A DNA stretch of 42,841 bases, taken from positions 1 to 42,841 of the forward strand of contig JACRPT010000104.1 of NCBI GenBank assembly GCA_016223045.1, written 5' to 3'. The notes under the pieces were generated by a model. That model was given only the letters and a program-made list of their open reading frames with translations. It was not told the origin of the DNA and did not search any database. The stretch comes from Candidatus Eiseniibacteriota bacterium (GTDB taxonomy: Bacteria; Eisenbacteria; RBG-16-71-46). A program made the translations under genes and the position numbers. Numbering within the stretch: position 1 is the first letter of the stretch; each line of letters starts with the position of its first letter. Shown here piece by piece: positions 282 to 26,142 of the stretch.

Positions 282-320
282 GCCCACGAGCATCAGGCCG
301 TCCGACCCGGGGTGCACGCC

Positions 321-1424
321 ATGCCGACCGTCGAACTGATCCACGTCAGCAAGTCCTACGGACGCGGCGCCCGGGCCGTGGACGACGTCAACCTCGAGAT
401 CCGCGACGGCGAGTTCCTGGTGCTGGTGGGCCCGTCGGGCTGCGGCAAGTCCACGGTGCTGCGCATGGTGGCCGGGCTCGAGGAGGTCACCGAAGGCCAG
501 GTGAAGATCGGCCCGCGGGTGGTGAACGAAGTGCCGCCCAAGGACCGCGACATCGCCATGGTGTTCCAGAACTACGCGCTCTACCCGCACATGACGGTCT
601 ACGAGAACATGGCGTTCGGGCTGAAGCGGCGGAAGCTCCCGGAGCCCGAGGTGGACCGCAAGGTCCGCGGCGCGGCGAAGACCCTGGGCCTCGAGGGCTA
701 CCTGCAGCGCCGGCCGCGCGAGCTGTCGGGCGGCGAGCGCCAGCGCGTGGCGCTCGGGCGCGCCATGGTGCGCGACCCGCAGGTATTCCTGTTCGACGAG
801 CCGCTCTCCAACCTGGACGCCAAGCTGCGCGTCCAGATGCGCGCCGAGATCAAGCGCCTGCACCGCCGGGTCAGCGCCACCATGATCTACGTGACCCACG
901 ACCAGGTCGAGGCGATGACGCTGGGCGACCGCATCGCGGTGCTCAAGGGCGGCGTGCTCCAGCAGGTGGCCGATCCCTTCGCGCTCTACCAGCGGCCGGC
1001 CAACCAGTTCGTGGCCGGCTTCATCGGCAGCCCGCCCATCAACTTCTTCGACGCCACGGTGAGCCCAGCGGGTGACAGGATCGAGGCGCACGGCGTGGCG
1101 GTCCCGCTACCCGCCGCTCTGGCGGCGCGGCTCGAGCCGGTGCGCGGCAGGGCGGTCACGGTCGGGGTGCGGCCCGAGGACCTCGCGCTCTCCGCCGACG
1201 GCCCGGGCGCGGCGCTGGACGGGACGGTCGAAGTGCTCGAGCCGCTCGGCAACGAGGTACTGGTCCACTGGCAGACGCCGGTGGGGGCGCTGATCTCGCG
1301 CGTGCCCGGCCAGAGCGCCCCCGGGGTGGGAGAGCAGGGGCGGCTCCACTTCCTGTACGTGAAGCTCCACTTCTTCGACCCGCAGACCGAGAAGGCCCTG
1401 GACGGCGCCGCCGTCGCGGTGTGA
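321..1424 (+). CDS. ABC transporter ATP-binding protein, MalK/UgpC type
   Basis: This is a 367-residue cytoplasmic ATPase of the carbohydrate-uptake (CUT1) importer family. Visible motifs are Walker A GPSGCGKST (residues 37-45), a Q-loop (VFQNYALYPHMTVYENM), signature LSGGERQRVALGRAM from residue 135, Walker B (QVFLFDEPLSNLD), and the H-loop (YVTHDQVEAM). A C-terminal TOBE region (VGVRPEDLAL) follows, as in MalK. Length is normal for the family. I chose ATG 321 over the in-frame GTG 312 because it places MPTVELIHVSKSYG at the usual N-terminus. No permease lies beside it. The only matching permeases are the MalF/MalG-type genes at 18662-20391, so it probably energises that importer. This class of ATPase is often shared by several sugar importers, so the exact substrate is uncertain. 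Confidence 0.95.
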   Translation: MPTVELIHVSKSYGRGARAVDDVNLEIRDGEFLVLVGPSGCGKSTVLRMVAGLEEVTEGQVKIGPRVVNEVPPKDRDIAMVFQNYALYPHMTVYENMAFGLKRRKLPEPEVDRKVRGAAKTLGLEGYLQRRPRELSGGERQRVALGRAMVRDPQVFLFDEPLSNLDAKLRVQMRAEIKRLHRRVSATMIYVTHDQVEAMTLGDRIAVLKGGVLQQVADPFALYQRPANQFVAGFIGSPPINFFDATVSPAGDRIEAHGVAVPLPAALAARLEPVRGRAVTVGVRPEDLALSADGPGAALDGTVEVLEPLGNEVLVHWQTPVGALISRVPGQSAPGVGEQGRLHFLYVKLHFFDPQTEKALDGAAVAV

Positions 1425-3067: not shown

Positions 3068-5755
3068 CTACTTCGCCGCCGCCCCGGTCGCCTTCGTGAG
3101 CTTGAAGAGCCGCCCGCTCTCGGCCGGGAGCTTCACCGTCGCGCCCGCGACCCACGACTCGGCCGCGCCCGAGAGCACGTCGAGCGCGCGCACCTTGCCG
3201 CCCCACGCCGCGAGGTCCACCGGCATCTCGGCGTCCTGCCGGCCGGCGTTCAGGGCCACCAGCCAGTCCTCGCCGCCGCCGCTCCTCACGTAGCCGTAGA
3301 GCATCCCGCTCGCGTGGACGGTGCGGAAGTCGCCGGTGCGCAGCGCCGCGCTCGACTTCCGCGCCGCGATCAGCGCCCTGTAGTAGTCGTGCAGCGCGAC
3401 GCGCTTCGGGTCCTTCTGCCAGTCCCACGGGAACGGCCGGCGGCAGTCGGGGTCCTTGCCGCCTTCCATGCCGACTTCGTCTCCGTAGTAGATGTGCGGG
3501 GCGCCGACGTAGGTCATGGCGAACAGCGCCGCGAGCTTCAGCCGATTCACGTTTCCACCCACCTGGGTGAGGAAGCGCACCGTGTCGTGGCTGTCGATGA
3601 GGTTCATCTGCACCTCGACCGCCTGGCTCGGGTAGGCGAGCCGCCCGGTGGCCAGCGTGGCGTCGAACTCGGCGGCCGTGCCCTGGCCCATCGCCAGGAA
3701 GCGCGCGACCGGGTCGCGGAAAAACGCGTAGTTCATCACCGCGTCGAAGGCGCCGGGCTTGACCCAGTCGGTGGCGTTGCCCCACAGCTCACCCACGACA
3801 TAGGCGTCGGGCTTGACCTGCTTCACGCGCTGGTTGAAGAGCTTCCAGAACCACGGCGGCACCTCGTTCGGCACGTCGAGCCGCACGCCGTCCACGTCCG
3901 CGGTCTTGAGCCAGTACTCGGTGGTGTCGAGCAGGTAGTTGACGAGCGCGATGTTGGGCTGGGCCTGCGCGACGTCCTTCACCGCGTTCTCGGCCGGGTC
4001 GGGACGCGAGAGGTCGAAGTTCAGGTCGGGCAGGTCGCCGAAGCCCCACCAGCATTTGTAGTAGTCCGCCGGTTTCCACACCTGGCCCACGTCGGGCCAG
4101 CCCGGCGGGAGCGGCCACTTCTTGAACTCGTACCACGACCAGTAGGGGCTCTGCTGGCCCTTCTCCGCGGCGTCCTTGAACGCCCAGTTGGAGTTGCCGG
4201 AGTGGTTGTAGACGATGTCGAGGATGATGCGGATGCCCTTCGCCCGCGCCTCCTTCACGAACGCGATGAACTCGTCGTTGGTGCCGGAGTGCGGGTCGAT
4301 CTTCCGATAGTCCGCGCAGTCGTACTTGTGCGTGGACTTGGCCTCGAAGATCGGGTTGAAGTAGATCACCGTCACCCCGAGATCCGCGAGGTAGTCGAGG
4401 CCCTGGCGCACGCCCTCGACGTCACCGCCGTAGAACGCCATCCAGTCGCGCCCGTCCTGCGTGTAGGGGTTGTGCGTGAGCGCGCCGAAGTCGTTCCAGT
4501 CCTTCACCAGGTGGTAGTACTCCTGGAAATCGGTGTTGAGCCTGCCCGCGGCGGGCGGCGTGTGCTTGCCCTGGTAGTACCACTCGTGGAAGTCCGGGTC
4601 GTTCGCCGTGCTGCCGTTGCGAAAGCGGTCGGGGAAGATCTGGTAGATGACCCCGTTCTTCACCCAGTCCGGTGTGACGAACGCGGGGAAGCGCGTGACG
4701 TCCCAGGTGAAGCGCCCCAGGTCCGCGGTGGGCTTGAGGCCGGTGCTGGTGAGGTACCAGACCTTGCCGCCGTCGCGGTAGCGGAAGGCGTAGGACGCCT
4801 CGCCGGGCAGCGTGACCTCGGCGCGGAAGTAGTCGTAGACCCTGTCGTGGTTCACGCGGCGCATCGGTGTGAACTTCGGCTGCGCGCCGGTGAACTGGAC
4901 GAAGTCCACACCCTCGACGTCACCGGCATGCGCGCGCGCGGTGAACTGCACCTTCCCGCCGCCCAGGTGGTTGACCTCGCTCGCGGCCTGCTCGTGGGTG
5001 ACGCCGTCGGTAAAGACGTCGCCGTCACCCTGCTTCACTTCGATCTTCGGGAATCGGTCGTCCACGTTCACGATCGAGTTCTTGCCGCCGAAGCCGTCGT
5101 CGGTCTCGCCATCCTGGCCGGACTTGTCCTGGAGCCAGGTGTTGTCGCCGACCACGAACTTGTACTGGTAGCTGCCCACCGGGAGCAGCAGCGTGACCGT
5201 GTACTCGCCGTCGCCGTCCGGGTCGGTCACCGCGGTCTTGCCCACGGTCCAGTCGTTGAACGTGCCGGCCAGGCTCACCCGGTCGGGCTTCGCCGTCGGG
5301 CGGAACTTGAACGTGACCTTGCGCAGCCCGAGCTTCGGCGCGGCCTCGGCCTTCTTGATGGTGGAACCCAGACCCACCGTCACCGGCTGGTCCTTGAGCA
5401 CGAGCACCGAGTTCTGCCCGCCGAAGCCGTCGGGGGAGAAGTCCTCCGCGGTCTCGTCGGCGAACCACTGGTCGCCGTTCACCACGAACTTGTACTCGAC
5501 GCGGCCGGGATCGAGATCGAGCGTCGCTTCCCAGATGCCGTCCTTGTCGTCGTCCTTGAGCGGGTTCGCGGTGGCGTTCCAGCCGTTGAACGTGCCTGCC
5601 GCCGACACGGTGGTCACGCCGCCGATCACGGGCTGGTAGCGGAAGGTGACCTTCGTGGCCCAGGCAGCCGTCGCCGCCAGGCACAGCGCGAGCGCGCCGA
5701 GCGCCGCGACCGGGCCGGCGCGCCGCGCGAGGAGGGAGGGACTCGTCAGCGACAT
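3068..5755 (-). CDS. Exported GH13 neopullulanase/cyclomaltodextrinase-like enzyme with two glycogen-binding domains
   Basis: This 895-residue protein should hydrolyse alpha-1,4 (and possibly alpha-1,6) glucan linkages outside the cytoplasm. Residues 1-34 form a signal peptide (ALGALALCLAATAAWA). Two AMPK/CBM48-type glycogen-binding modules follow, at about 36-125 and 142-232, each ending in a DGFGGKNSxxxV strand. A neopullulanase-type N-domain is at ~250-345. The GH13 barrel has DIVYNHSG, GVRLDVPNEV (nucleophile D627), GELWGN (acid/base E656) and IDSHD (D724). The VPNEV after the nucleophile resembles neopullulanase and cyclomaltodextrinase. ATG 5755 has GAGGAG 8 bases upstream. It sits downstream of three lipoprotein genes, two of them with clear GBDs, and directly before the radical SAM gene. 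Confidence 0.95.
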   Translation of the reverse strand: MSLTSPSLLARRAGPVAALGALALCLAATAAWATKVTFRYQPVIGGVTTVSAAGTFNGWNATANPLKDDDKDGIWEATLDLDPGRVEYKFVVNGDQWFADETAEDFSPDGFGGQNSVLVLKDQPVTVGLGSTIKKAEAAPKLGLRKVTFKFRPTAKPDRVSLAGTFNDWTVGKTAVTDPDGDGEYTVTLLLPVGSYQYKFVVGDNTWLQDKSGQDGETDDGFGGKNSIVNVDDRFPKIEVKQGDGDVFTDGVTHEQAASEVNHLGGGKVQFTARAHAGDVEGVDFVQFTGAQPKFTPMRRVNHDRVYDYFRAEVTLPGEASYAFRYRDGGKVWYLTSTGLKPTADLGRFTWDVTRFPAFVTPDWVKNGVIYQIFPDRFRNGSTANDPDFHEWYYQGKHTPPAAGRLNTDFQEYYHLVKDWNDFGALTHNPYTQDGRDWMAFYGGDVEGVRQGLDYLADLGVTVIYFNPIFEAKSTHKYDCADYRKIDPHSGTNDEFIAFVKEARAKGIRIILDIVYNHSGNSNWAFKDAAEKGQQSPYWSWYEFKKWPLPPGWPDVGQVWKPADYYKCWWGFGDLPDLNFDLSRPDPAENAVKDVAQAQPNIALVNYLLDTTEYWLKTADVDGVRLDVPNEVPPWFWKLFNQRVKQVKPDAYVVGELWGNATDWVKPGAFDAVMNYAFFRDPVARFLAMGQGTAAEFDATLATGRLAYPSQAVEVQMNLIDSHDTVRFLTQVGGNVNRLKLAALFAMTYVGAPHIYYGDEVGMEGGKDPDCRRPFPWDWQKDPKRVALHDYYRALIAARKSSAALRTGDFRTVHASGMLYGYVRSGGGEDWLVALNAGRQDAEMPVDLAAWGGKVRALDVLSGAAESWVAGATVKLPAESGRLFKLTKATGAAAK

Positions 5756-5828
5756 GGAGGGGACTCCTCGAGGTTCGAGTGGGATCCGTGCGGCGCCGGC
5801 GGACCGGGCGCGCCGGAGGGGGAGATTC

Positions 5829-5855
5829 GGAGCGCCGCCCGGCGGGCGGCGCTCC
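5829..5855 (-). terminator. GC-rich hairpin after the triple-GBD lipoprotein gene
   Basis: A 12-bp perfect stem (GGAGCGCCGCCC / GGGCGGCGCTCC) with a 3-base loop starts 4 bases past the stop at 5859. It lies in the 103-base gap before the GH13 gene. There is no T-tract. It may partly terminate transcription or stabilise the 3' end of the upstream lipoprotein message. Confidence 0.45.
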
Positions 5856-5858
5856 CGG

Positions 5859-6953
5859 CTACTTCACGGTGACGAGCGAGTTCTTGCCTCCGAACCCGTC
5901 GTCCTTCGCTTCCGGATTGGCGTCATCCTGCTTCCAGGTCGTGCCGTTCACCACGAACTTGTAGGCGTACGTGCCGGGTGCCAGCTTCTTCGAGATGGTC
6001 CAGGTGCCGTCGGCTTGCTTCGCCATCGGGTCGACGGTGGTGGACCAGCCGTTGAATTCGCCGGCCAGCGCCACCGCGGTCGCGCCGCCCGCGAAGGTGA
6101 ACACCACGGCGTCGGCGGTCACCGCGGGCGGCCTGCCCTTGCCCGTGGGTGCGGTGGCGGCGGTCGCGGCGGGCGCGGGAAGCGGAGCGGCCGTGCCGGG
6201 CGCGCCGCCCACCGCGATCACGGAGTTCTTGCCGCCGAAGCCGTCGTCCGTGGACTCCTTCGCCGTCGGGTCTTCCTTCCAGGTGTTGCCGTCCACCACG
6301 AACTTGTAGGCGTAGCGCCCGGGCTCGAGCTTCTTCGTGATGGTCCACGAGCCGTCGGCCTGCTTCGTCATCGGGTCGGCAGTGGTGTTCCAGCCGTTGA
6401 ACTCCCCGGCCAGCGCGACCGAGTTGCCGCCGCCCTTCCATGCGAAGGCCACGCCCTCGCCGGCGACGGCCGCGCCGCCCGCGGCGGGGGCGGGGGCCGG
6501 TGCGGGAGCGGCCGCGCCGCCCACCACGATCACCGAGTTCTTGCCGCCGAACCCGTCGTCGGCGCTTTCGGTGGCCGTGGGGTCGGGCTTCCAGTTCGAG
6601 CCGTCCACCACGAACTTGTACTGGTAGCGCCCGGGCTCGAGCTTCTTCGTGATGGTCCACGAGCCGTCGGCCTGCTTCGTCATCGGGTCGGCGGTGGTGT
6701 TCCAGCCGTTGAACTCGCCGGCCAGGGCGACCGAGCCGCCCTCGCCCTTCCACACGAAGGTCACGCCGGCGGCACTGGCCTGAGTCGCCCCGGGTGCACC
6801 CGCTGTCCCCTTCGCCGCGGGAGCGGCCCCCGCCGCGACGCCCGGCGCCTGGGCGCTCCCCGGGGGCGTGCCGCCCCGCCAGCCGCCGGCGCATCCGCTC
6901 AACGCCACCGCCGCGGCCAGCAGCGGCGCGGCCCAGACGATCGTGCGCTTCAT
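5859..6953 (-). CDS. Lipoprotein with three tandem AMPK-type glycogen-binding domains
   Basis: A 365-residue protein has a lipoprotein signal (AVALSGC, lipid Cys21). An Ala/Gly/Pro linker is followed by three glycogen-binding modules at ~62-145, 166-249 and 281-365, separated by further Ala/Pro linkers. Each repeats the pattern vALAGEFNGWxTTxDPMxKQADGxWTIxKKLxPGxYxYKFVVxGxxWKxDP...DDGFGGKNSxxxV. The conserved Trp residues are those that stack on glucan in the AMPK-beta and CBM48 families. No catalytic domain is present, so it is likely a glucan-holding surface or periplasmic protein. Two starts are possible. ATG 6953 has AGAGGAG 9 bases upstream. ATG 6959 overlaps the upstream stop as ATGA, which suggests translational coupling. 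Modules 1 and 2 are nearly identical in DNA, which points to recent duplication. Confidence 0.9.
   Translation of the reverse strand: MKRTIVWAAPLLAAAVALSGCAGGWRGGTPPGSAQAPGVAAGAAPAAKGTAGAPGATQASAAGVTFVWKGEGGSVALAGEFNGWNTTADPMTKQADGSWTITKKLEPGRYQYKFVVDGSNWKPDPTATESADDGFGGKNSVIVVGGAAAPAPAPAPAAGGAAVAGEGVAFAWKGGGNSVALAGEFNGWNTTADPMTKQADGSWTITKKLEPGRYAYKFVVDGNTWKEDPTAKESTDDGFGGKNSVIAVGGAPGTAAPLPAPAATAATAPTGKGRPPAVTADAVVFTFAGGATAVALAGEFNGWSTTVDPMAKQADGTWTISKKLAPGTYAYKFVVNGTTWKQDDANPEAKDDGFGGKNSLVTVK
5986..6740 (-). repeat. Internal tandem repeats encoding the glycogen-binding modules
   Basis: The same block, beginning TTCTTCG on the plus strand, starts at 6643, 6331 and 5986. The offsets are 312 and 345 bases, both multiples of three. 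The 6331 and 6643 copies are nearly identical across the module core, while the 5986 copy has diverged. Confidence 0.75.
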
Positions 6954-6955
6954 GG

Positions 6956-8371
6956 TCATCGTCTCCTCTGGCTCAGCCGGGGAGCGGGCGCGGCCTCGAT
7001 GCTGAAGGTCTGTCGCCGCTCGTCCAGCGTGAACCTGTAGTTGCCGGCCGCCGCGAACTGCACGTGGAGCGCCGTGCCGAAGCCCGACACCAGCCCCACG
7101 GGCTGGTCGGTCACCGGCACGGCGATGGTCACGCTCTCGTCGCCGCCGTAGTCGGTCGGGTTGTCGAACGAGCCGTCGGTCACGAACTTCATGTTGTAGG
7201 TGCCGGCCGCGATCGCGTGCGACGGCGTGTACTCCCACTTGAGCTGGGAGGTGAGGCTCATGCTGGTGGAGTCGGCCAGCGTGAAGCCGTTGAAGTCGCC
7301 GGCCACGTGGATCTGGCTCGCGAGCTTGCCGAAATCCGCGGCGAGCGTGACGGTGGTGAGCGTCTCCACGGCCGTGCCGACCGTCACCGGGTCCACCGCG
7401 GCAGGGACGAAGAAGTAGCTGCTCACCACCACGCGGTAGTCGCCGGCCGCGAGGGCGGAGAACGAGAAACTCGGGCTGGTGCGCGACGTGGTGTCGGAGG
7501 TCACCAGGAAGGTGCCCTGGTAGAGCTGCACGATCGCCGGCGGGAAGGGCGGACTCGTCAGGTCGGGGAACGTCGTGGGGTCGAAGGCCACGATGCCGTA
7601 GATGCCGCCGGTGTTCCCGCCACCGCCGAAGCTGATGGTGCCGAGGTCCGCTGCCCCGGTCGTCACGATCACGTTCGCGATGGTGCGCGGCGGCTTGCCG
7701 GCCGGCCGCACCAGCACGTTGTAGGTGCCCCGGGCGAGGCCGGTGATGGTGAAGCGGCCGTCCACCGTGCTCGAGAACGTCGCCGGCGACGCGCTCGTGA
7801 TCTTCTCGAACCGGTAGTGGGCCAGGCTGGGGTTCTCGTCCAGGGTACAGAGCAGCAGGCCCGCGGACGACGCGCTCACGGTGGCGCGCAGGTTGGTGCC
7901 ACCCCCCGGGTCCGGCTGCAGGTCGTTCTCCAGGCCGTCCGGCCGCGCGGGATCCGTGCTGGCGTAATCCGCCCCGTTGCCGTTCCAGTCGCCGTTCGTC
8001 CCGAACTTCCATTCGAGCGATCCCGCGGGCAGCGAGAGCGTGTCCACCCACACCTTCGGGGCGAGCTGGGTGAGGTGGGGCGCCGACGCGAAGCTCCACG
8101 CGGGCTGGTTGAAGCTCCCGATCGCCTGGATGGAGGTGAACTGCGAGGCCGCCGCCCCGGCCTTCACCGCGGCGACCAGCACGAGCGTGGCCGGGTAGCT
8201 CCCGGTGCCGAACTCCAGCTTGCCGGTGATGGCGCCGTTCCCGGGCACCACCGGCGGCGTGCCGCTGGGCGCCAGCAGCGTGTTCAGGGAGTTCTTGTCG
8301 CAGGCGCCGAGCACGAACGCCATGCCCAGCGTCGCGGCCGCGAGGATCGTGCGCCTCAGGGTGCTGCTCAT
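6956..8371 (-). CDS. Lipoprotein with SusE/SusF-like and carboxypeptidase-regulatory-like modules
   Basis: A 471-residue predicted lipoprotein (MAFVLGAC, lipid Cys24) has no catalytic motif. Residues ~50-170 hold an E-set-like module (WSFASAPHLTQLAPKVWVDTLSLPAGSLEWKFG). A carboxypeptidase-regulatory-like beta-sandwich follows (FTITGLARGTYNVLVRPAGK), then a second similar one (FSFSALAAGDYRVVV). The C-terminus carries diverged SusE/SusF- or GBD-like units (IHVAGDFNGFTLAD, GTYNMKFVTDGSFDNPTDYGGDESV, GNYRFTLDERRQTFSIE). The arrangement recalls the starch-binding outer-membrane lipoproteins SusE and SusF, though identity is by pattern only. Its stop overlaps the next gene's possible ATG (ATGA). 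It lies between two GBD lipoprotein genes, so glucan binding is the natural guess. Confidence 0.8.
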   Translation of the reverse strand: MSSTLRRTILAAATLGMAFVLGACDKNSLNTLLAPSGTPPVVPGNGAITGKLEFGTGSYPATLVLVAAVKAGAAASQFTSIQAIGSFNQPAWSFASAPHLTQLAPKVWVDTLSLPAGSLEWKFGTNGDWNGNGADYASTDPARPDGLENDLQPDPGGGTNLRATVSASSAGLLLCTLDENPSLAHYRFEKITSASPATFSSTVDGRFTITGLARGTYNVLVRPAGKPPRTIANVIVTTGAADLGTISFGGGGNTGGIYGIVAFDPTTFPDLTSPPFPPAIVQLYQGTFLVTSDTTSRTSPSFSFSALAAGDYRVVVSSYFFVPAAVDPVTVGTAVETLTTVTLAADFGKLASQIHVAGDFNGFTLADSTSMSLTSQLKWEYTPSHAIAAGTYNMKFVTDGSFDNPTDYGGDESVTIAVPVTDQPVGLVSGFGTALHVQFAAAGNYRFTLDERRQTFSIEAAPAPRLSQRRR

Positions 8372-8401
8372 GGCTGCCCTCTCCGGGTCACCGGGACCGG
8401 C

Positions 8402-8797
8402 TCATCGGACGTCGATCACGGAGTTCTTGCCGCCGTAGCCGTCGTCGGTCCACTGCGGGTTGTTGGGGTCTTCCTTCCAGTTCACGCGGTCGATGACGAA
8501 CTTGTACTGGTAGCGACCGGAAGGGAGCTTCTCGGTCCGGGTCCAGATGCCGTCGCCGTCCGGGTCCTCCATCGCGCCGACCAGGAAGCTCCCGGTCTGC
8601 GCCTGGCCGCGCAGCCAGTCGTTCGCAGGCCAGTTGCCGGCGAGCTGGACGATCTTGGCCGACGGCGAGTTGAAGCGGAAGGTCACGCCGGCCGGGCCCT
8701 GGGCCGGCGGCGGCAGCCGCCGCTTGATGAAGGTGAGAGTGCTGCAGCCGCCGGCGGCGAGCGCGGCGGCGAGCAGCAGCATGGAGATCCGCCTCAT
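8402..8797 (-). CDS. Small lipoprotein with one glycogen-binding domain
   Basis: A 131-residue protein has a lipobox at LAAGGC (Cys18), a short basic Pro-rich linker, and one AMPK/CBM48-type module at ~38-131. The module has VQLAGNWPANDWL, DGIWTRTEKLPSGRYQYKFVIDRVNWKEDP and DDGYGGKNSVIDV. It consists of essentially the module plus an anchor. ATG 8797 is preceded by AGGAG 7 bases upstream. The gene starts 9 bases after the stop of the barrel-GBD gene, so it is surely co-transcribed with it. It probably tethers or captures glucan at the outer membrane, possibly as an accessory to the barrel. Confidence 0.9.
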   Translation of the reverse strand: MRRISMLLLAAALAAGGCSTLTFIKRRLPPPAQGPAGVTFRFNSPSAKIVQLAGNWPANDWLRGQAQTGSFLVGAMEDPDGDGIWTRTEKLPSGRYQYKFVIDRVNWKEDPNNPQWTDDGYGGKNSVIDVR

Positions 8798-8806
8798 GGA
8801 TTTCTC

Positions 8807-10972
8807 CTAGAAATGCACGATCGCCTTGAGCTGGAAGCGCCGCTCGTTCTCCAGCGCCTTCTCCGCGGCCGCGATCTTCGGCCCGAGCCCGTAGTAGTTG
8901 GTGCGCGCCGTGGCGGCGTTGGCGCCGCGGTCGAACAGGAACAGGTCGCGGCCGATGGGAGCGTACTGGTTGACCGGCGGGTCGATCACCCACGGGTCCA
9001 CGCCGAAGCCGAGCTCGACCGTGATGCCGGGGGCGAACGTGTAGTTCAGGTCGGCGTAGTGGCTCAGGTATCCGCCGTGGAGCCCGAGGAACGGATCGTC
9101 GTACTTGACCCAGCGGCTGTCGCTGCCGAAGCGCAGCGCCGGCCTCACGTCGCAGCCGAGCTGGAAGATGGACTCCGCGTACTTGGGACGCAGGTCGAGC
9201 GCCACCGCGTCGAACGTGCCCTTCCAGCGCACCACGCCGTTGCGGCGCGCCAGCACCGGTACCTCGACCATGGGGCGCACCTGCACGACGTCGGCGCCGC
9301 CCAGCATCACCATCCGGTCCACGCTCACCACGTGCTCGTTGTGCTCGAGCCAGAAGCTCCCGTTCGGGAACCACATCTGGTAGTCCCACGGGGTGCGCGG
9401 GTCGTAGTCGAAGCTCGTGAACTCGACGCCCAGCGAGGTCCGCACCTCGCGGGCCAGGTAGTGGCGCCAGTTCCGGTCCCAGGTGAGCCGGCTCATCGTC
9501 ATGGCGTTCGACAGGCCGTCCTGGATGATCCGGTAGTCGTGGGTCTGCCGCTCCACCTCGGCGCGCACCACGATGTCCCCATGTGATTCGGTCCACGAGC
9601 CGCCCGCCAGCCAGCGGTCGCTGCGGTCCATGTCGAAGCTGCGGCCGATGATGCTGAGGTTCAGGCCGAGCGAGGTCTCGTCGTAGGAGGTGATGCCGGT
9701 CGAGTCCGCGCCGGTCACGGTGAAGTCCGACTGGAAGGAGTTGGTGTTGGGCACGAAGGTGAAGCGGCGCGCTCCGCGCAGGAACTCCGCGTAGCCGCGC
9801 AGGCCCCGCGGGCCGTCCCACGACAGCTCGCCGCCGACCGCGTACCACTGCTGCTCGAACAGCCCGAAGAAGCGCTGGAAGTTGAGCGGCCCGGTGACCT
9901 GGTTGAACAGGCCCGCGCCCAGGTCGAAACCGCGGTCCGAGCGCCCGAGCAGCCCGGCCCTGAGGCCGTGCCCGAGGGCGCGGCGCGTGCGGAAGGCGAA
10001 CATGTCCTCGTTGGCGTCCGAGACGTTGATCCGGAAGACGCCCGGGACCTGGCCGGGCGCCAGGACGAACGAGGTGTCCGACCGGATCGTCCGCAGGCTG
10101 TCGCGCGTCGCCTGCGACAGGTCGAGGAACTCCTGCACCGTGAAGTCGGGGTACACGGTGCCGCCGGGGTCGAAGTTGTCCGCGTACTGCGCCTCGGTGT
10201 CGAAGCCCCACTGCTGGGTGCTCAGCTTGAAGCCCTGGCGGTGGTAGCCGTAGGCGTGCCGGTAGATGCCGACGTTCCCCACCAGGCGGAGCGGGTCGTC
10301 CCAGGTGCCGACGCCCTCGTTGTCGTAGCCCAGGATCTGGAGCCCGGGCTTCGAGAACAGCAGCGAGCCACGGTCGAAGTTCAGCGCCGTGCGGTAGTCC
10401 TGCGCGTTCTGCTTCTCGCTGTTGATGTCCATCAGGAAGTGCGCCTTCAGGACGTCGGACATGCGGACGTCGAAGTCCAGGTTGATGTCCATGTCCGGGC
10501 GTCGCAGCTCGAAGCGGCGGTCCTCGGCGCTGCGGATGTCCTGGTAGAGCCCGATGATCCTCCCGCCCATGAAGATCTTCGGGCTGTAGGCGGTGTTCGA
10601 GCTGGCACGCGCGGTGACCAGGCCGCCTTCCGCCCCCACCGTTACCACGCTGTTGCCGAAGTCGCCCGCGGTCGCGCCGTTCTCCGGGTCAGCGACCCAC
10701 TGGCCGTCCACCACGAACTTGTACTGGTGCGTGCCGGCCGGGAGGGGCACGACCACGCTCCACACGCCGCCCGCGCCCTTCGCCATGGGCGTGGCGGACG
10801 TGGACCAGCCGTTGAACTCACCGGCCCACGCCACCTGGCCCGCGTTGGGGTCGGTGTAGGTGAAGCGGATGCCGCCGTCGGCCTTTTCCGGGGCGGCCGC
10901 GAGCCGCGCCGCGGCCGGCGGCATCGCGACGGCCGCGAGCGCCAGGATGGCGGTGAGGAGTGCGCGCTTCAT
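8807..10972 (-). CDS. Outer-membrane beta-barrel with N-terminal glycogen-binding domain
   Basis: A 721-residue protein has a signal peptide (residues ~1-27) and a glycogen-binding module at ~33-112 (VAWAGEFNGWSTSATPMAKGAGGVWSVVVPLPAGTHQYKFVVDG). About 590 residues of alternating amphipathic strands follow, rich in Asp, Tyr, Trp and Arg turns. The protein ends ...RRFQLKAIVHF, and the terminal Phe is the classical signal for barrel assembly. No TonB box or plug domain is seen, so it is not SusC-like. I infer a porin-like conduit or scaffold that holds glucan on the periplasmic side, where an N-terminal module would lie. GGAG is 7 bases before ATG 10972. It sits 31 bases downstream of another barrel gene. 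I know of no characterised protein with this architecture. Confidence 0.85.
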   Translation of the reverse strand: MKRALLTAILALAAVAMPPAAARLAAAPEKADGGIRFTYTDPNAGQVAWAGEFNGWSTSATPMAKGAGGVWSVVVPLPAGTHQYKFVVDGQWVADPENGATAGDFGNSVVTVGAEGGLVTARASSNTAYSPKIFMGGRIIGLYQDIRSAEDRRFELRRPDMDINLDFDVRMSDVLKAHFLMDINSEKQNAQDYRTALNFDRGSLLFSKPGLQILGYDNEGVGTWDDPLRLVGNVGIYRHAYGYHRQGFKLSTQQWGFDTEAQYADNFDPGGTVYPDFTVQEFLDLSQATRDSLRTIRSDTSFVLAPGQVPGVFRINVSDANEDMFAFRTRRALGHGLRAGLLGRSDRGFDLGAGLFNQVTGPLNFQRFFGLFEQQWYAVGGELSWDGPRGLRGYAEFLRGARRFTFVPNTNSFQSDFTVTGADSTGITSYDETSLGLNLSIIGRSFDMDRSDRWLAGGSWTESHGDIVVRAEVERQTHDYRIIQDGLSNAMTMSRLTWDRNWRHYLAREVRTSLGVEFTSFDYDPRTPWDYQMWFPNGSFWLEHNEHVVSVDRMVMLGGADVVQVRPMVEVPVLARRNGVVRWKGTFDAVALDLRPKYAESIFQLGCDVRPALRFGSDSRWVKYDDPFLGLHGGYLSHYADLNYTFAPGITVELGFGVDPWVIDPPVNQYAPIGRDLFLFDRGANAATARTNYYGLGPKIAAAEKALENERRFQLKAIVHF

Positions 10973-11003
10973 GGTCGTGCTCCGCGAGCCTGCGGTCCCA
11001 TGG

Positions 11004-12527
11004 TCAGAAACTCCCCTTGAGGATGAACTTCACGATGTCGGCCTGGTCCCCGCTGCCCTGCAGGTTGCCTTCGTCCACGGGGACCGTGCCGCCGCCGATG
11101 TAGTCGGGCCCGTACTGGAGGTACATCTCCACGTTGCCGGTGGGCCGGTACTGGAGCTGGCTGAAGATGCCCTTCCGGAGGATGCTCGCGTCGTTGCCGA
11201 ACGCGAAGCGGTTGTACACCTTGAAGGTGGCCGACAGGTTGACCGAGTTCTCCACCGCGTAAAGCTGCTTGCGCTCGGGCCGTCCCACGTCCTTCACCTT
11301 GCCCTGCACCCTGAGCCAGGCGAGCCGGCTCTCGACCTGCATCTCGCCGAACCAGTCGTTGTGCGCCTCCCGCGTGCGCACGCCGGCGACCTCGCGGTAG
11401 GAGGTGCGCTGGCGGTAGTAGGTCTTGCCGGTGAAGCCGTTCACGAACTCGACGTAGAGCTCGTTGTAGTTCTCGCTGTCCTCCTGGCGCGCGGTGGCGC
11501 GGCTGGCGTAGTGGAGCAGCTTGTTCGTGAAGGTGATCGCGCGCTCGGGGAGCAGGTAGTAAGTGTGGAGGTTGAAGCCGGTCTCGTCGCGGCCCGGACC
11601 GCCCTGGCCGTTCTGCCAGCGCGGCCCGCGCGACCACCAGGTCGGGATGCAGTTGAGGGAGCCGACCACCGGGAGCGGCACGCGGATGGTGCGGATCTCG
11701 GCCTGGGTCACCGCACGGTCGGGGAGCGTGATCCCCACCGGCTGCTTGAAGACGGTGAGCTCGCGGCCGAGCTGGTCCGGGTAGCGCACGGAGGGGTCGG
11801 AGCCACGGCTCTGGCCGACCTCGAACAGGAAGTCGGTGCCGCGCCACTGGTAGCGGCTCGCCAGCCCGAAGACCTCGACGTGGTCGCGCTGGTGGTCGGA
11901 GCCCACCGGCTGGTTGTTCTCGCGCCGGTTCCAGGTGAAGCCGACCCGGAGGCGCTTGTCCTTGAAGAAGTCGCGCCGCACCCGCCCGATGTAGACGTCG
12001 TCGGTGCGCAGGGGGTTGCTGCTGTTGTTGTACTGGTCGCTGTAGTCCCCCACCAGCCACCAGGTGTTGAGCCCCCAGAAGCCCCAGGTGTCGAGCCGCG
12101 CCCCCTGCGCCGAGCCGTTCCCGTAGACGAAGGGGATCAGGTACTGGTCCCACGTGGGGAAGCGGTCCTGGCGCGAGAACACGTAGCTGTCCACCCCGCG
12201 CAAGCCCATCTCCCTGCGGAAGCGCATGTGGGCTTCGCGGTACTGGAACTGCGGGCGCGGCGTGCTGTTGCTGCCCTCGTTCCAGTCGGCCTCGAACTTG
12301 ACGAACGCCTCGGTCCCGGGCCGCGGCTGGGAGAACAGCCGGATCTCGGCCGGCGTCCAGTTCTCGCCGCTGTTGCTGACCCAGTCCCAGGGGAACACGC
12401 GCTGGTTCTTGCGCAGGTCCATCATGAGCTGGTACTGGCCCTCGACCCTGGTGAGGGCGCGCGCCGCGGGCGGCGCGGCGAGGAGCAGCGCCAGGGCCAG
12501 TGCGCCGAGGCGCGGGAGGGCTCTCAT
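11004..12527 (-). CDS. Outer-membrane beta-barrel protein
   Basis: A 507-residue protein has a signal peptide (LGALALALLLAAPPAARA, cleavage near residue 24). The rest is strand-rich and aromatic (RLFSQPRPGTEAFVKFEADWNE, YLQYGPDYIGGG) and ends ...DIVKFILKGSF, with the terminal Phe typical of barrel proteins. No enzymatic or plug motif is visible. ATG 12527 overlaps the TGA of the upstream PorV-like gene (ATGA). The protein is similar in style to the GBD-barrel encoded next, but it lacks the binding module. Possible roles are an oligosaccharide porin or a structural partner of the GBD-barrel. The specific family is not recognised. Confidence 0.8.
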   Translation of the reverse strand: MRALPRLGALALALLLAAPPAARALTRVEGQYQLMMDLRKNQRVFPWDWVSNSGENWTPAEIRLFSQPRPGTEAFVKFEADWNEGSNSTPRPQFQYREAHMRFRREMGLRGVDSYVFSRQDRFPTWDQYLIPFVYGNGSAQGARLDTWGFWGLNTWWLVGDYSDQYNNSSNPLRTDDVYIGRVRRDFFKDKRLRVGFTWNRRENNQPVGSDHQRDHVEVFGLASRYQWRGTDFLFEVGQSRGSDPSVRYPDQLGRELTVFKQPVGITLPDRAVTQAEIRTIRVPLPVVGSLNCIPTWWSRGPRWQNGQGGPGRDETGFNLHTYYLLPERAITFTNKLLHYASRATARQEDSENYNELYVEFVNGFTGKTYYRQRTSYREVAGVRTREAHNDWFGEMQVESRLAWLRVQGKVKDVGRPERKQLYAVENSVNLSATFKVYNRFAFGNDASILRKGIFSQLQYRPTGNVEMYLQYGPDYIGGGTVPVDEGNLQGSGDQADIVKFILKGSF

Positions 12528-13477
12528 CGGCTCCCGGGCCCTCCGAGCGGCACCAGCACGCTCACGCGGTAGGACGCGCCCAGGTCGTGGTTGGTGGCGG
12601 CAGCGGCATCCACCACGTAACCCTTGTGGAAGATCCCGAAGCCCCCGGTGTACTGGAAGTCCTGGGGCGAGCCGGTCGACTCCACGATGGGCGTGAGGTT
12701 GGTGAGCCCCGAGCGGATCGCGAACACGTCGTAGAACAGGATCTCCATGCCCACGTTCACCGACGGCCTGGTGCCCCTGATCTGCGACCAGCCCGCGGTG
12801 ATGGTGGACTCGCGGTTCCAGCGGAACGCCGCGGCCAGCTCGTGGCGCAGCGGCAGGAGCCCGCCGCCGCTGCCCTCGACGAACTGGTAGCGGGGCTCGA
12901 GCAGGTCGCGGCCCACCCACGCCAGGTCCACCTTCCACGGCGTGGTCCACAGCAGGCCCGCGTCGAGCGATCCCTTGGACTGGGCGCCGTAGTCCACGCG
13001 GCCCGCGGGCTGCCAGTCGCCGCCGTAGTCGAGCACGTCGAAGGGCTGGAAGCTCACCCGTCCGAACTTGAAGGTGGCGCCGGCCGCGAGCGCGTGGCCC
13101 TCGCCGAACGTGCGCAGCGAGCGTCCGGCCGAGAGCGTGAGCAGGTCTTCGGCGTAGGCGCCGGAGATGCCGAGCCGGTGCCAGCCCAGCGCCCAGCCGG
13201 TGTCGAAGCGGCGCGCGCCCACGAACAGCGCGCCTTCGTTCAGGTCCGGCACGCCGAAGGGCCGCGCGACATCGGCCAGCACCTGCGCGCGGGTGAGGTC
13301 GGCGAGGCCGGCCGGGTTCCAGTAGGCGGCCGAGACGTCGTGGATGCAGGCCAGCGCCGAGAAGCCGAGCGAGAGCCCGCGCGCCCCGCTGGCGGTCTCC
13401 TCGAACCAGGCGCGCGCGGGCGCGACGCTCGCGAGCATCAGCGCGAGCGCGGCGAAGGCACGGAGCGCGGCCCTCAT
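12524..13477 (-). CDS. PorV/UPF0164-like outer-membrane barrel
   Basis: A 317-residue protein has a signal peptide (AFAALALMLASVAPARA). The N-terminal signature SGARGLSLGFSALACIHDVSAAYWNPAGLADL is typical of the FadL-fold PorV/PorQ/UPF0164 group. Repeated strand pairs follow (HALAAGATFKFGRVSFQPFD, RHELAAAFRWNRESTITAGW). In Bacteroidetes, PorV shuttles cargo of the type IX secretion system. Here the neighbours include proteins with FlgD-type tails, so an export or surface-attachment role is plausible but unproven. Start 13477 is coupled to the upstream gene by ATGA, and its own stop is coupled the same way to the next barrel gene. Confidence 0.75.
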   Translation of the reverse strand: MRAALRAFAALALMLASVAPARAWFEETASGARGLSLGFSALACIHDVSAAYWNPAGLADLTRAQVLADVARPFGVPDLNEGALFVGARRFDTGWALGWHRLGISGAYAEDLLTLSAGRSLRTFGEGHALAAGATFKFGRVSFQPFDVLDYGGDWQPAGRVDYGAQSKGSLDAGLLWTTPWKVDLAWVGRDLLEPRYQFVEGSGGGLLPLRHELAAAFRWNRESTITAGWSQIRGTRPSVNVGMEILFYDVFAIRSGLTNLTPIVESTGSPQDFQYTGGFGIFHKGYVVDAAAATNHDLGASYRVSVLVPLGGPGSR

Positions 13478-14745
13478 CGCACCACCACCACGGGGCGCGT
13501 GATGCGGCTGAGGTTCGGCTCGATCACCACGCGCAGCACGTAGACGCCGGGCGGGACCGGGTGGCCGCTCTCGTCGCGGCCGTCCCACACGTCCCACAGC
13601 GGGTCGAGCGGGGTCAGGCCGTAGCGCCGGTCCGCGATGTAGAGGTTGCGGACCCAGCGCCCGCGCAGGTCGAACACGTTGGCCGTGAGGTCCACGGTGC
13701 GCAGGGCGTCGAGCGGACGGTCGGGATCGAGCGGCGGGTCGAGCCGGAAGCGGAAGCCCACCTTCTCGCCGCGGTCGGGAGCGAACGCCGGCCGGCTGAG
13801 CGCGAGGTCGGCGAGCGCGAAGCGCACGCCCACGATCGGGGGCGGGTACTTGAAGCTCACGCGCGTCTTCGGCTCGATGCCCCAGTCGGCGATGCCGTCC
13901 GACGTGGAGTCCGGGCTCCCGGGCAGCTCCCGCCGCAGGTCCAATTCGATCTCGGCGTAGTTGTCCAGGTAGACGAAGGCGTTGCCGTCGGTGGTGTGGC
14001 CGCGCGTGTTGTCCGGGGCCGAGTCGGGTCCGCCGGTGTTGTCGCCGCCGGCGGTGATGACCCCGGCGATCTTGAGCCTGCGGCCCGGCGGGAACCACCG
14101 CAGGGTGTCGCGCACGCCGCCGATGGTGACCACGGTGTCGCGCGTGTCGGCGTCGTTCGCGAACACCGTGCTCCACGGGATCGCCGCCTCCATCGCCCGG
14201 CCGTCCTGGTCCTGGAAGAAGCTCGCGGCCGCGAGGAACAGGCCGCCGCCCACCAGCTGGTCGCTCACCTGCGTGCCGCTCTGGTGGATGATGAGGTGCG
14301 GGGTGGAATTCCCGTCCCAGGTGGCGGGGAAGAGGTCCGGCATGAACTCGCGCCCGACCGCCACGTCGGAAATGTCGAACGTGAAATTGCGCGACCAGGA
14401 GTTCAGGCCGCTCATCGTGTACATGCCGCGCCCGGGGATGGCGTCTATGAAGAGCACCATGTTGTTGCCCCAGGTCTTGCCCTCGCCTGCGATGTAGAGG
14501 TTGTGGGCGTCCCAGGTCACGCGAATCTGGTTGATGTCGTTGTTCGGGCCCCACTTCGAATCGTCGGTGGCCTCCTCCGGCAGGTTCAGGCCCGCGTTGA
14601 GGCCGAACAGCCGCTCGCCGGCCGTCCATTCACTGGCGAAGCCGTCCACGTGGATGCGCGCGCTCAGGTCGCGGGCGGTCTCGGCGGGCGACGGAGAGGC
14701 CATGAGAAGGAGGGCCAGAAAGGACGGGGCGGTGCGGCGGATCAC
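13474..14745 (-). CDS. Exported protein with CBM9/DOMON-like domain and FlgD-type C-terminus
   Basis: A 423-residue protein starts at GTG 14745, which has GGAG 5 bases upstream. The N-terminus (IRRTAPSFLALLLMASPSPAETA) is a signal peptide. Residues ~30-260 look like the CBM9/DOMON-like sandwich found in many exported FCB proteins (IHVDGFASEWTAGERLF, IRVTWDAHNLYIAGEGKTWGNNMVLFIDA, EAAIPWSTVF). The C-terminus (VFDLRGRWVRNLY...VWDGRDESGHPVPPGVYVLRVVI) is a FlgD Ig-like tail. The module type is common for carbohydrate recognition, but the ligand is unknown. It is the first gene of the ATGA-coupled trio and sits right behind a good promoter match, so it probably heads the whole glucan operon. Confidence 0.8.
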   Translation of the reverse strand: MIRRTAPSFLALLLMASPSPAETARDLSARIHVDGFASEWTAGERLFGLNAGLNLPEEATDDSKWGPNNDINQIRVTWDAHNLYIAGEGKTWGNNMVLFIDAIPGRGMYTMSGLNSWSRNFTFDISDVAVGREFMPDLFPATWDGNSTPHLIIHQSGTQVSDQLVGGGLFLAAASFFQDQDGRAMEAAIPWSTVFANDADTRDTVVTIGGVRDTLRWFPPGRRLKIAGVITAGGDNTGGPDSAPDNTRGHTTDGNAFVYLDNYAEIELDLRRELPGSPDSTSDGIADWGIEPKTRVSFKYPPPIVGVRFALADLALSRPAFAPDRGEKVGFRFRLDPPLDPDRPLDALRTVDLTANVFDLRGRWVRNLYIADRRYGLTPLDPLWDVWDGRDESGHPVPPGVYVLRVVIEPNLSRITRPVVVVR

Positions 14746-14857: not shown

Positions 14858-14887
14858 TTGCCCCGCTGGAGTCGCGGGGCCTACAAT
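14858..14887 (+). promoter_or_regulatory. Candidate promoter for the exported protein gene at 15009
   Basis: TTGCCC at 14858-14863 and TACAAT at 14882-14887 have an 18-base spacer, about 120 bases before ATG 15009. The strong TACAAT stands out in a GC-rich region. The two promoters are back to back, so one regulator bound between them could control both sides. Confidence 0.4.
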
Positions 14888-15008
14888 GTTGACGCCTGAC
14901 CCCCAGAACCCGGCGCTTGCGCCGGCCGGTTCCTGCTGCCATCCGGGCTTGGCCGCCGGGCCGGGCATCGTGCGTGGCATCCGGTCGGCCCGGCTGGAGA
15001 ATCCCCAC

Positions 15009-17498
15009 ATGCGAACCTTGCGACTGCTGCTCCTGGCCTCCTGCCTCGTGCTGGCGGCGGGGCCCGCGCGGGCGTTCGTGCCGCAGACCATCACGGTGGA
15101 CGGCACCAACGACTTCGACCCCTCGAACCTGGTGACGGACGACCGCCTCGACACGCAGAAGTTCTTCTGCACGCCGGACTCGGTCTACCCGCTCGACGTG
15201 GGCCGCATCTACCTCACCAACGACAACACCTACCTCTACCTCGGGATCGAGTTCAGCCAGTACTGCTTCACCGGCGACAACATCGGCGTGGCCATCGACG
15301 TGAACGGCGCCGCCGGGGGCGCCACCGATCCGTTCGGTCGCAAGATCGGGTGGGCCAGCGTGGCGAACCGGCCGGACTGGGTGGTCTACGATGTGCTCAA
15401 GTACCCGGGCAACACCTTCAACTATGAAGCGCTCTACAAGGACTCGCTGGGAGCCTGGTACAACCGCTCGATCTACGTGAACCCGTCGTACGGTTCGGGT
15501 TCGGACGGCCTGCACATCGCGGACAGCACCGGCTTCATCGAGTTCAAGCTCCCGCTCGCGACACTGGGCATCTCGGCCGGCAACACCATCAACGTCGAGT
15601 GGTGGCTGACCCAGGAGGGCGCGACCAAGGGCCCGCTCGACGCGGCGATGAGCGACAACGTCCAGATGTCGCGCGTCGGGCAGACGACCTGGGACACCAC
15701 GGCCGTGGTGCAGATGACCACCATGTTCGCCTACGGTGTGATGAGCGCGGTGGACAGCATCCCGCCCACGGTCTCGAACGCGGTCGCGGTGAACTTCCCG
15801 CTGCTCGCCGACAAGACCTTCAATCTCACCACCAACAAGATCGACGTCACCTTCAGCGAGCCGGTGAGCCAGGTCACCGCGAACGTGGCGGGCAACTACG
15901 CGTTCAGCGGCCCGGTGTCGCGCACCGTGGTGCTGGCGCAGCGCGACGCCGCCGCGAGCAACGTCGTGCACCTGACCCTCAACAGCGGCATCACGGCCAA
16001 CGCCGCCTTCTACAACATCACGGTGTCGAACGTGCAGGACCTGGCCGCCAACCCCATCGTGGCGAACGGCACCACCAACGTGGGTTCGTTCTTCATCCAG
16101 ACCCTGGCATTCGAAGGGAACTTCAAGGTCGGGCTGTGCAAGGGCATCTTCGCCCCGACCGACACGTTCTCGATCGAGGGGAACCTGCTGCCCCTCACCT
16201 TCTCGTTGTGCGACAACGCGCTCCTGAAGGACCCCAACGCCGACTCGATCTATACGATCAGCGTGCCGTTCTGCATGGCGAAGAACGTCGGGACGGGGAA
16301 GGCGGAGGCGGACCTCGAATGGAAGTTCGCGCGGATCTGCAGCCAGTTCGAGCCGCTGGGCTCGAACCGCACGTATCACCTCACCAGCGACAACGGCGCG
16401 AGCGCGACGCTCGCCGGTTTCTGGAACAACGACGACCCCGCCAACTTCACCTTCCACCCGGTGGACGTCGTCTTCCAGGTGAACGTCACGCTGGTCGGCC
16501 CGGCACCGGGCGACTCGTTCTTCGTGCAGGGCAACGAGTACCCGCTCGCATTCACGCCATCCGGCGTGCTCATGCATGACGACGGCGTGGCGCCGGACCT
16601 GGTGGCGGGCGACAAGACCTACACGGCGAAGGCCCGCTTCCCGAACTGCGCCGGAAAGAACGTCGAGTGGAAGACGTACTACCGCGGGAACTATGAGTGC
16701 CTGACCCAGGGGAACCGCACCTTCTACCTGAACGACGCGGCGTACGACACCGTGGGCGGCGCGATGGGCGCGCTCACCCTGCCGGCGCGCGGGATCGAGC
16801 GCTGCACGGTGACCGACAAGGCGGTGACCGTGGTGTTCCGCGTGGACATGACGCTGCTCGATCCGGACCCGGGCCCGGCCGACACGGTTGCGGCGATGGG
16901 CGACATCGCGCCGATGAGCTTCGTGGCGCCCCCGCCCGCTGCCGCGCGGATGTTCGACGACGGCGCCGGCTACGACGCGGCGGCGGGCGACCACATCTTC
17001 ACGCGCGCGATCACGTATCCCGATTCCTCGAACCTGAGCGGCCAGTTCAAGTACTGGCTGAACGGCGTCTTCGAGTGCGCGAGCATCCCGAACCGCTCGC
17101 TCGTGATCAACGACGTGATCTACTCCACCACGACGCCATGGATCCGGCCGCTGAACGCCTGGGACTTCTGCAGCGATCCCACCGGCGTGCCCTACGGCGG
17201 CGGCGTGGACGCGAGCGCGAGCTTCGCGGTGCTGCGCCAGAGCTTCCCGAACCCGATGATGCCGCGCACTACGATCCGCTTCGACCTGAAGCGCGCCGGG
17301 CGCGTGACCCTGACGGTGTACGACGTGTTCGGCCGGCGGGTAGCCAAGCTGGTGGACGCCGAGCTGGCGGTCGGCCCGCACGAGGCGGTGTGGAACGGCC
17401 GCGACGCCACCGGGCGCAGGGCGCCGAGCGGCGTGTATCTCTACGAGCTGGGGATGGGCGGCCAGCACCTGAGCCGGCGCCTGGTGGTGACCAAGTAG
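15009..17498 (+). CDS. Exported multidomain protein with starch-binding-like repeats and FlgD-type tail
   Basis: An 829-residue protein starts at ATG 15009, with GGAG 9 bases upstream, which puts the signal peptide (LRLLLLASCLVLAAGPARA) at the N-terminus. Residues ~25-250 form a CBM9/DOMON-like domain (ITVDGTNDFDPSNLV, GRIYLTNDNTYLYLGIEF). An SbsA-type Ig-like module follows (IDVTFSEPVSQVTANVAGNYAF). Then come three ~110-residue repeats with the pattern VvFxVxxTLxxPxPgD...G...P, DDG...GDxxYT and a final NRtfxL. The last element recalls the WE..PNR strand of CBM20 starch-binding modules. The FlgD-type tail is SFPNPMMPRTTIRFDL...VWNGRDATGRRAPSGVYLYEL. No catalytic residues are seen. It is likely a secreted or surface alpha-glucan-binding protein. 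The CBM20 resemblance is my inference. Confidence 0.8.
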   Translation: MRTLRLLLLASCLVLAAGPARAFVPQTITVDGTNDFDPSNLVTDDRLDTQKFFCTPDSVYPLDVGRIYLTNDNTYLYLGIEFSQYCFTGDNIGVAIDVNGAAGGATDPFGRKIGWASVANRPDWVVYDVLKYPGNTFNYEALYKDSLGAWYNRSIYVNPSYGSGSDGLHIADSTGFIEFKLPLATLGISAGNTINVEWWLTQEGATKGPLDAAMSDNVQMSRVGQTTWDTTAVVQMTTMFAYGVMSAVDSIPPTVSNAVAVNFPLLADKTFNLTTNKIDVTFSEPVSQVTANVAGNYAFSGPVSRTVVLAQRDAAASNVVHLTLNSGITANAAFYNITVSNVQDLAANPIVANGTTNVGSFFIQTLAFEGNFKVGLCKGIFAPTDTFSIEGNLLPLTFSLCDNALLKDPNADSIYTISVPFCMAKNVGTGKAEADLEWKFARICSQFEPLGSNRTYHLTSDNGASATLAGFWNNDDPANFTFHPVDVVFQVNVTLVGPAPGDSFFVQGNEYPLAFTPSGVLMHDDGVAPDLVAGDKTYTAKARFPNCAGKNVEWKTYYRGNYECLTQGNRTFYLNDAAYDTVGGAMGALTLPARGIERCTVTDKAVTVVFRVDMTLLDPDPGPADTVAAMGDIAPMSFVAPPPAAARMFDDGAGYDAAAGDHIFTRAITYPDSSNLSGQFKYWLNGVFECASIPNRSLVINDVIYSTTTPWIRPLNAWDFCSDPTGVPYGGGVDASASFAVLRQSFPNPMMPRTTIRFDLKRAGRVTLTVYDVFGRRVAKLVDAELAVGPHEAVWNGRDATGRRAPSGVYLYELGMGGQHLSRRLVVTK

Positions 17499-21721: not shown

Positions 21722-21832
21722 CGGCGTCTTCCTCCAACGGTTCGGGTGGGCTCCGGGCCGTGCGGGGTCGCCGCCTCCGGCGGCGGGCCCCACTGTTCGC
21801 GGAACACCCCGGCGGCCGCGGAGCACCAGATG

Positions 21833-26084: not shown

Positions 26085-26142
26085 CGGGAACTCCAGTTCG
26101 AGTGGTCGGCCCAGGTGGACGAAGGGGCCCCGGAGGCACGTC

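Follow-up and report, generated by a model that had tools for sequence, protein, structure and literature searches.

A conserved locus of AMPK-type glycogen-binding modules and two unnamed barrel families, inferred to serve outer-membrane glucan uptake in Candidatus Eisenbacteria and other bacterial phyla

How Gram-negative phyla without SusC/SusD take polysaccharides across the outer membrane is largely unknown, and the question is raised by a gene run found in a 42,841-nucleotide stretch of DNA (the window; assembly GCA_016223045.1, contig JACRPT010000104.1, positions 1 to 42,841 of the forward strand) from a Candidatus Eiseniibacteriota bacterium. In Candidatus Eisenbacteria and in several other bacterial phyla, starch or glycogen appears to be captured and taken in by a conserved set of outer-membrane proteins which carry the same kind of glycogen-binding module (GBD) as human AMPK, paired with two barrel-protein families that the databases searched do not name and without the SusC/SusD parts known from gut bacteria. 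The initial annotation, made from the sequence alone, had described at least seven AMPK/CBM48-type modules in one strand run (two on a GH13 enzyme, three on one lipoprotein, one on a small lipoprotein and one on a barrel), together with two Phe-ending barrels, a PorV-like barrel and a FlgD-tailed protein, with no visible TonB plug or SusD fold, and had inferred a distinct alpha-glucan capture and import apparatus without a known characterised equivalent.

The observation was confirmed by the analysis. Eight co-directional minus-strand genes, with spacings of −4 to +103 bp, occupy positions 3068–14745, and a Pfam search placed seven AMPK1_CBM modules over the family cut-off within 5.8 kb on the four proteins named, the weakest being that of the small lipoprotein (28.4 bits against a cut-off of 26.8). 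A search of the whole 3.9-Mb genome returned exactly these seven modules and no others, so their concentration is not chance. The residues W100, K126, W133 and N150 (AMPK beta-1 numbering), the first three of which contact glucan in AMPK (PMC2642990), are kept in all seven modules; in the barrel 1 ORFs of the loci compared, these residues are kept in 38/38, 37/38, 35/38 and 35/38 sequences, respectively. No TonB plug or SusD hit was obtained for any protein of the locus, and SusD (PF07980) was absent from the whole genome in a search in which the control genome of Bacteroides ihuae was positive. Nine TonB-plug hits were found, all on other contigs. The PorV-like protein and the FlgD tail of the first gene of the run are supported only weakly (Table 1).

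Two corrections to this description were necessary. The second lipoprotein of the run, overlooked as a module carrier, contains two further and weaker X25/GBD-like modules, the C-terminal one lacking most of the binding residues, and gave a weak SusF_SusE match, below cut-off. In addition, the functional locus is larger than described and extends from a malK gene (position 312) to a gene for a GH57-like enzyme (position 26150), with MalE, MalF and MalG encoded between the latter and the run. MalE is a clear maltodextrin-binding protein, which points to the substrate independently of the modules. The assignment of the enzyme as GH57 was not retained beyond "GH57-like", since the match was poor in the window and just under the cut-off in a homologue.

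Table 1. Genes of the locus, with positions in the window and supporting evidence.
Position	Strand	Predicted product	Evidence
312..1424	+	MalK/UgpC-type ABC ATPase	Pfam ABC_tran, OB_MalK, TOBE_2; also next to the locus in another instance of it (72% identity)
3068..5755	−	GH13 alpha-amylase family enzyme with two N-terminal GBD modules and signal peptide	Pfam Alpha-amylase 8.6e-60, AMPK1_CBM ×2; NCBIfam maltodextrin glucosidase/cyclomaltodextrinase best but below cut-off
5859..6959	−	Lipoprotein with three GBD modules (lipobox LSGC)	AMPK1_CBM ×3, 1.1e-48; nearest solved structure AMPK beta-1 GBD 1z0n
6956..8371	−	Lipoprotein (lipobox LGAC) weakly resembling SusE/F; CarboxypepD_reg plus two weak X25/GBD-like modules	CarboxypepD_reg 7e-10; X25 2e-7 (2 stretches); SusF_SusE E = 0.077; 2 GBD-model stretches
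8402..8797	−	Small lipoprotein with one GBD; signature CSTLTFIKRRLPPP after the lipid Cys	AMPK1_CBM 1.9e-6; 53–81% identical in Eisenbacteria loci with the close barrel 1 type; motif conserved across phyla
8807..10972	−	Barrel 1: N-terminal GBD fused to a predicted outer-membrane beta-barrel of unnamed family	AMPK1_CBM 3.9e-15; GBD in 18/18 homologues, no Pfam family for the barrel; AF2 pLDDT 79
11004..12527	−	Barrel 2: predicted outer-membrane beta-barrel of unnamed family	No Pfam or NCBIfam family in 18 members apart from one chance hit; AF2 pLDDT 78, ~24–26 strands, C-terminal Phe
12524..13477	−	PorV/FadL-like small outer-membrane barrel	NCBIfam PorVQ2 4e-11 (42 bits, cut-off 325), PorV_fam 3e-8 (34 bits, cut-off 90)
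13474..14745	−	Secreted CBM9/DOMON-like beta-sandwich protein (by inspection only) with FlgD-like tail; GTG start at 14745	FlgD_ig 0.0046; conserved first gene of the block
14886..17498	+	Multi-domain secreted protein with FlgD/T9SS-type tail	FlgD_ig 9e-8, T9SS sorting domain 8e-5; linked in relatives
17672..18577	+	Small secreted protein, weak X25-like	Linked in relatives
18662..19480	−	MalG-type permease	BPD_transp_1
19504..20391	−	MalF-type permease	BPD_transp_1
20468..21730	−	MalE-type maltodextrin-binding protein	PDB 6ffl E = 6e-86; E. coli MBP about 1e-35
21870..26150	−	GH57-like secreted enzyme with T9SS/FlgD tail	T9SS sorting domain 4.6e-8, over cut-off; Glyco_hydro_57 E = 0.26, 2.5e-4 in a homologue

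What are the two large barrels? Both end in Phe, are modelled as barrels of about 24–26 strands, and are distantly related to each other, but neither matches a named barrel family, and no Plug domain was found in 18 homologues of either. A search of PDB sequences with profiles of both gave no barrel relative, with two chance hits at 0.04 for barrel 2 and only GBD structures for barrel 1. A Foldseek search with both models returned only generic outer-membrane barrels, among them general porins, ushers and receptors, with TM-scores to the query of at most 0.53 and 0.36 and rmsd above 10 Å; no transporter class was thus assigned, and a channel function is not independently supported. Since TonB receptors top the fold list of barrel 1, membership of that family was considered and rejected, the TM-score being at most 0.36 and the Plug domain absent.

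The block FlgD-tailed protein / PorV-like protein / barrel 2 / GBD-barrel / GBD lipoprotein(s) recurs in 17 of 47 Eisenbacteria and, in whole or part, in 20 genomes of other phyla, whereas 30 of the 47 Eisenbacteria lack barrel 2. Barrel 2 is followed by a GBD-bearing gene in all 37 genomes, and when searched alone in other phyla it always led to a downstream GBD gene. In one phylum barrel 2 is present in 13 of 13 good genomes. Mal genes were found on 23 of the 38 stretches retrieved, and in another phylum a GBD is built into a MalG-type permease of the same locus, showing that the module is reused at the inner membrane too.

The results are best explained, with fair confidence, by a polysaccharide-utilisation locus for alpha-1,4-glucans (glycogen, starch, maltodextrins). 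In this view, the lipoproteins and a secreted enzyme carrying GBD modules would hold the glucan at the cell envelope, the GH13 and GH57-like enzymes would cut it to maltodextrins, and the conserved pair of large barrels, with the PorV-like barrel and the small GBD lipoprotein, would let the oligosaccharides cross the outer membrane, after which MalE would bind them and MalFGK import them. Because the GBD sits at the mature N-terminus of barrel 1, it most likely lies on the periplasmic side or inside the barrel, and receives or gates incoming chains. The modules, the gene content, the conserved gene order and the identity of MalE rest directly on the analysis and the substrate class is well supported, while glucan binding by these modules, passage through the barrels, the sidedness of the GBD and the role of the lipoproteins are inferred.

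The interpretation in the initial annotation is supported in part. A distinct alpha-glucan apparatus without SusC/SusD is supported by the results, and none of the findings set beforehand as contrary to it (a plug or SusD domain in the locus, a cluster not conserved in relatives, modules without the glucan-binding residues) was encountered. On the other hand, import of glucan by the barrels remains an inference, the presence on other contigs of nine TonB-plug proteins, which could carry the glucan instead, means that TonB-independence of the whole pathway is not proven, and the adjacent MalEFG/MalK importer, which makes the system a Sus-like front end on a Mal back end, had been missed, as had the multi-module lipoprotein with weak resemblance to SusE/F.

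Other readings of the locus appear unlikely. The barrels and the PorV-like protein could be a secretion or surface-display device, a T9SS-like branch which exports or anchors the glucan-binding proteins and amylases, with uptake through another porin or a TonB receptor, such receptors being present on other contigs. PorV-type proteins serve T9SS, a SprA homologue exists in the genome and several proteins of the locus carry FlgD/T9SS-type tails; however, barrel 1 carries a glucan-binding module in every homologue, with its residues intact, which fits a sugar substrate better than protein export, and the pair is single-copy and tied to GBD and Mal genes in the loci read. Less likely still, the GBD proteins may only tether cells to starch or glycogen particles, the barrels being general porins. 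Adhesion would need only the lipoproteins, and general porins are among the fold hits, but the inseparability of barrel 2 from a GBD gene in the 37 genomes is not expected of a general porin. Equally improbable is the building or export of an alpha-glucan or glycogen-like capsule by AlgE- or PgaA-like barrels: large barrels with a periplasmic sugar-binding domain would resemble exporters in outline, but no glycosyltransferase or synthase was seen in the window, and hydrolases and a maltodextrin importer were found instead.

A bolder possibility, which we consider rather doubtful although it is compatible with the data, is a TonB-independent outer-membrane polysaccharide importer in which an AMPK-type GBD, on barrel 1 and/or on the small GBD lipoprotein (LptE-like inside an LptD-sized barrel), takes the place of the TonB plug and SusD lid as the substrate-responsive gate, the same module being used from the cell surface to the ABC permease. 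If so, this would be a further architecture for outer-membrane glucan uptake beside LamB and SusCD, spread over several little-studied phyla. Searches of the open-access literature, by title and abstract, on Eisenbacteria and glycogen or polysaccharides, on AMPK1_CBM in bacteria, on CBM48 with the outer membrane and on SusCD with maltodextrin found no description of such a system. The locus provides two unnamed barrel families, a signature lipoprotein (C-x3-F-[IV]-K-[RK]-R-L-P-P-P plus GBD) and a well-supported substrate class, so that the question of polysaccharide uptake without SusCD becomes directly testable, and it shows the AMPK-type module as a putative envelope-wide glucan handle, from outer-membrane barrel to inner-membrane permease.

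Among known systems, the PorV/PorQ family and type IX secretion share with the locus a PorV-like protein and FlgD/T9SS-type tails, and the SprA homologue in the genome, but the resemblance to PorV is distant and no T9SS core gene was seen in the locus. The Bacteroides starch utilisation system (SusC/SusD/SusE/SusF/SusG) likewise combines lipoproteins with several starch-binding modules, a GH13 enzyme and outer-membrane barrels in one gene run; the present locus differs in the absence of a TonB plug and SusD, in the AMPK type of its binding modules, in its unnamed barrel families and in its inner-membrane step, a Mal ABC importer. With the E. coli maltodextrin system (LamB, MalEFGK) it shares MalE, MalF, MalG and MalK homologues and maltodextrin as the likely imported form, but no LamB homologue was recognised, maltoporin appearing only as a generic fold hit of barrel 2 (TM 0.32), and the modules on the barrel and lipoproteins have no LamB counterpart. 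Finally, the AMPK beta-subunit glycogen-binding domain (CBM48/AMPK1_CBM) is the nearest solved relative of the modules and has the same key glucan-binding residues, whereas here the module is found on envelope proteins of bacteria, fused to a predicted outer-membrane barrel and, in another phylum, to a MalG-type permease.

The window is one contig of a 3.88-Mb, 97.6%-complete draft genome, and the genes and ORFs located by coordinates are collected in the table below. The eight genes of the main run, with spacings of −4 to +103 bp, encode, from upstream, a FlgD-tailed secreted protein, a PorV-like barrel, barrel 2, GBD-barrel 1, a small GBD lipoprotein, a SusE/F-like lipoprotein, a triple-GBD lipoprotein and a double-GBD GH13 enzyme. 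Pfam AMPK1_CBM was over its cut-off on four of these proteins, with seven modules in all, and a search of the whole genome showed that these are the only seven that it contains. In addition, two weaker X25-type modules were found in the SusE/F-like lipoprotein.

Location and assignment of the genes and ORFs discussed in the text (L053 is a stretch fetched from genome G075, which belongs to another phylum)
Sequence	Positions	Strand	Feature
Window	1575-3053	−	B12-binding radical SAM protein with DUF4070, directly downstream of the GH13 gene; not seen as part of the conserved block
Window	3068-14745	−	Run of eight genes
Window	6956-8371	−	SusE/F-like lipoprotein
Window	8402-8797	−	Small GBD lipoprotein
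Window	14886-17498		Protein with FlgD/T9SS-type tail
Window	30775-33747	−	Response-regulator-like N-terminus fused to a PEP-synthase/PPDK ATP-binding domain and DUF5752
Window	37396-41553	−	FTR1/FtrD-like iron permease, two FtsX-like permeases (by inspection) and an ArsR-type regulator; probable metal-uptake operon
L053	6817-8190	−	MalG-type ABC permease with inserted AMPK-type GBD; both domains over Pfam cut-off
L053	13195-16161	−	989-aa ORF with six AMPK1_CBM modules

The nearest solved relative of the modules is the AMPK beta-1 GBD (1z0n). Of the residues reported to contact beta-cyclodextrin in that domain (W100, K126, W133, L146 and T148; PMC2642990), the two Trp and the Lys are kept in all seven modules, whereas the L146 position is occupied by Phe or Tyr and the T148 position by Gly or a gap. 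N150, which is reportedly also a glucan-binding residue of the AMPK module, is likewise kept in all seven. Across the barrel-1 ORFs of all genomes, W100 was found in 38/38 modules, K126 in 37/38, W133 in 35/38 and N150 in 35/38. In the SusE/F-like lipoprotein the N-terminal module aligned with W/K/W/N, although this alignment is weak, and the C-terminal module showed F/K/F/D at these positions.

The genes for MalE, MalF, MalG and a GH57-like enzyme lie on the far side of the run, and that for MalK on the near side. MalE matched 6ffl, named a maltose/maltodextrin transport homologue, at 6e-86 and E. coli MBP at about 1e-35, which points to the cargo independently of the GBDs. A SprA homologue in the genome makes the FlgD/T9SS-type tails of the GH57-like protein and of the tailed protein listed in the table plausible sorting signals. 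No TonB plug or SusD was detected in the locus proteins or in 18 members of each barrel family. SusD was absent from the genome, while the Bacteroides control was positive in the same search. Nine TonB-plug hits were found on other contigs, so the cell is not TonB-free.

Neither barrel domain showed a Pfam family in 18 members, apart from isolated chance-level hits. No NCBIfam family was found for barrel 2 either, and for barrel 1 NCBIfam matched only the GBD of the window protein. The AlphaFold models of the two barrels had mean pLDDT values of 77.6 and 79.2, with about 24-26 predicted strands as counted from the DSSP output, ending in a Phe-terminated strand. Foldseek comparison of these models returned only generic outer-membrane barrels, with TM to query of at most 0.53 and 0.36. 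Profile comparison related the two barrels to each other over about 209 columns (probability 94.9), so that they look like an ancient duplicated pair, although repetitive barrel strands can inflate such scores. Every member of the barrel-1 alignment carries the GBD (18/18).

Barrel 2 occurs once each in 17 of 47 genomes of the phylum, and in 20 further genomes outside it among 385 searched. In 38 barrel-2 loci obtained from 37 genomes, 37 have a GBD-bearing ORF directly downstream on the same strand; the exception ends at a contig edge inside barrel 2, and another contig of the same genome carries barrel 2 with its partner. In 33 of the 38 loci this ORF also scored with the barrel-1 model, and in the other five it is cut by a contig end or too divergent. 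Since eighteen of the 20 outside genomes were found with barrel 2 alone, the GBD linkage there is an independent test. A PorV-like gene is present in 28 of 38 and Mal genes in 23 of 38 stretches, several of which are short contigs. Barrel 2 was found in 13 of 13 good-quality genomes of the phylum of G115, one of the genomes examined, and in 2 of 3 in the phylum of G075; with Eisenbacteria, this makes at least three phyla. The small GBD lipoprotein is among the most constant parts, and in most loci, across phyla, it shows the signature C-x3-F-[IV]-K-[RK]-R-L-P-P-P right after the lipid Cys, a motif that may possibly act in sorting or docking.

In the mechanism proposed here, the glucan would be captured by the GBD lipoproteins, trimmed by the GH13 and GH57-like enzymes, passed through the barrel pair and handed to MalE and then to MalFGK. 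The parts list and the substrate class are well supported by the analysis, whereas import through these barrels is an inference, and glucan binding by the modules is predicted from sequence alone. The sidedness is also inferred: an N-terminal domain placed after a signal peptide on an even-stranded outer-membrane barrel faces the periplasm, so the barrel-1 GBD would receive or gate rather than fish outside. In G075 a GBD is inserted in the first periplasmic loop of the MalG-type permease (AMPK1_CBM 6.5e-13 and BPD_transp_1 8.7e-13 on one chain), which fits a hand-over chain on the periplasmic side. No earlier description of such a system was found in searches of the open-access literature. The locus is best regarded as an alpha-glucan utilisation locus, a kind of system that is already known, in which the outer-membrane parts are unrelated ones.
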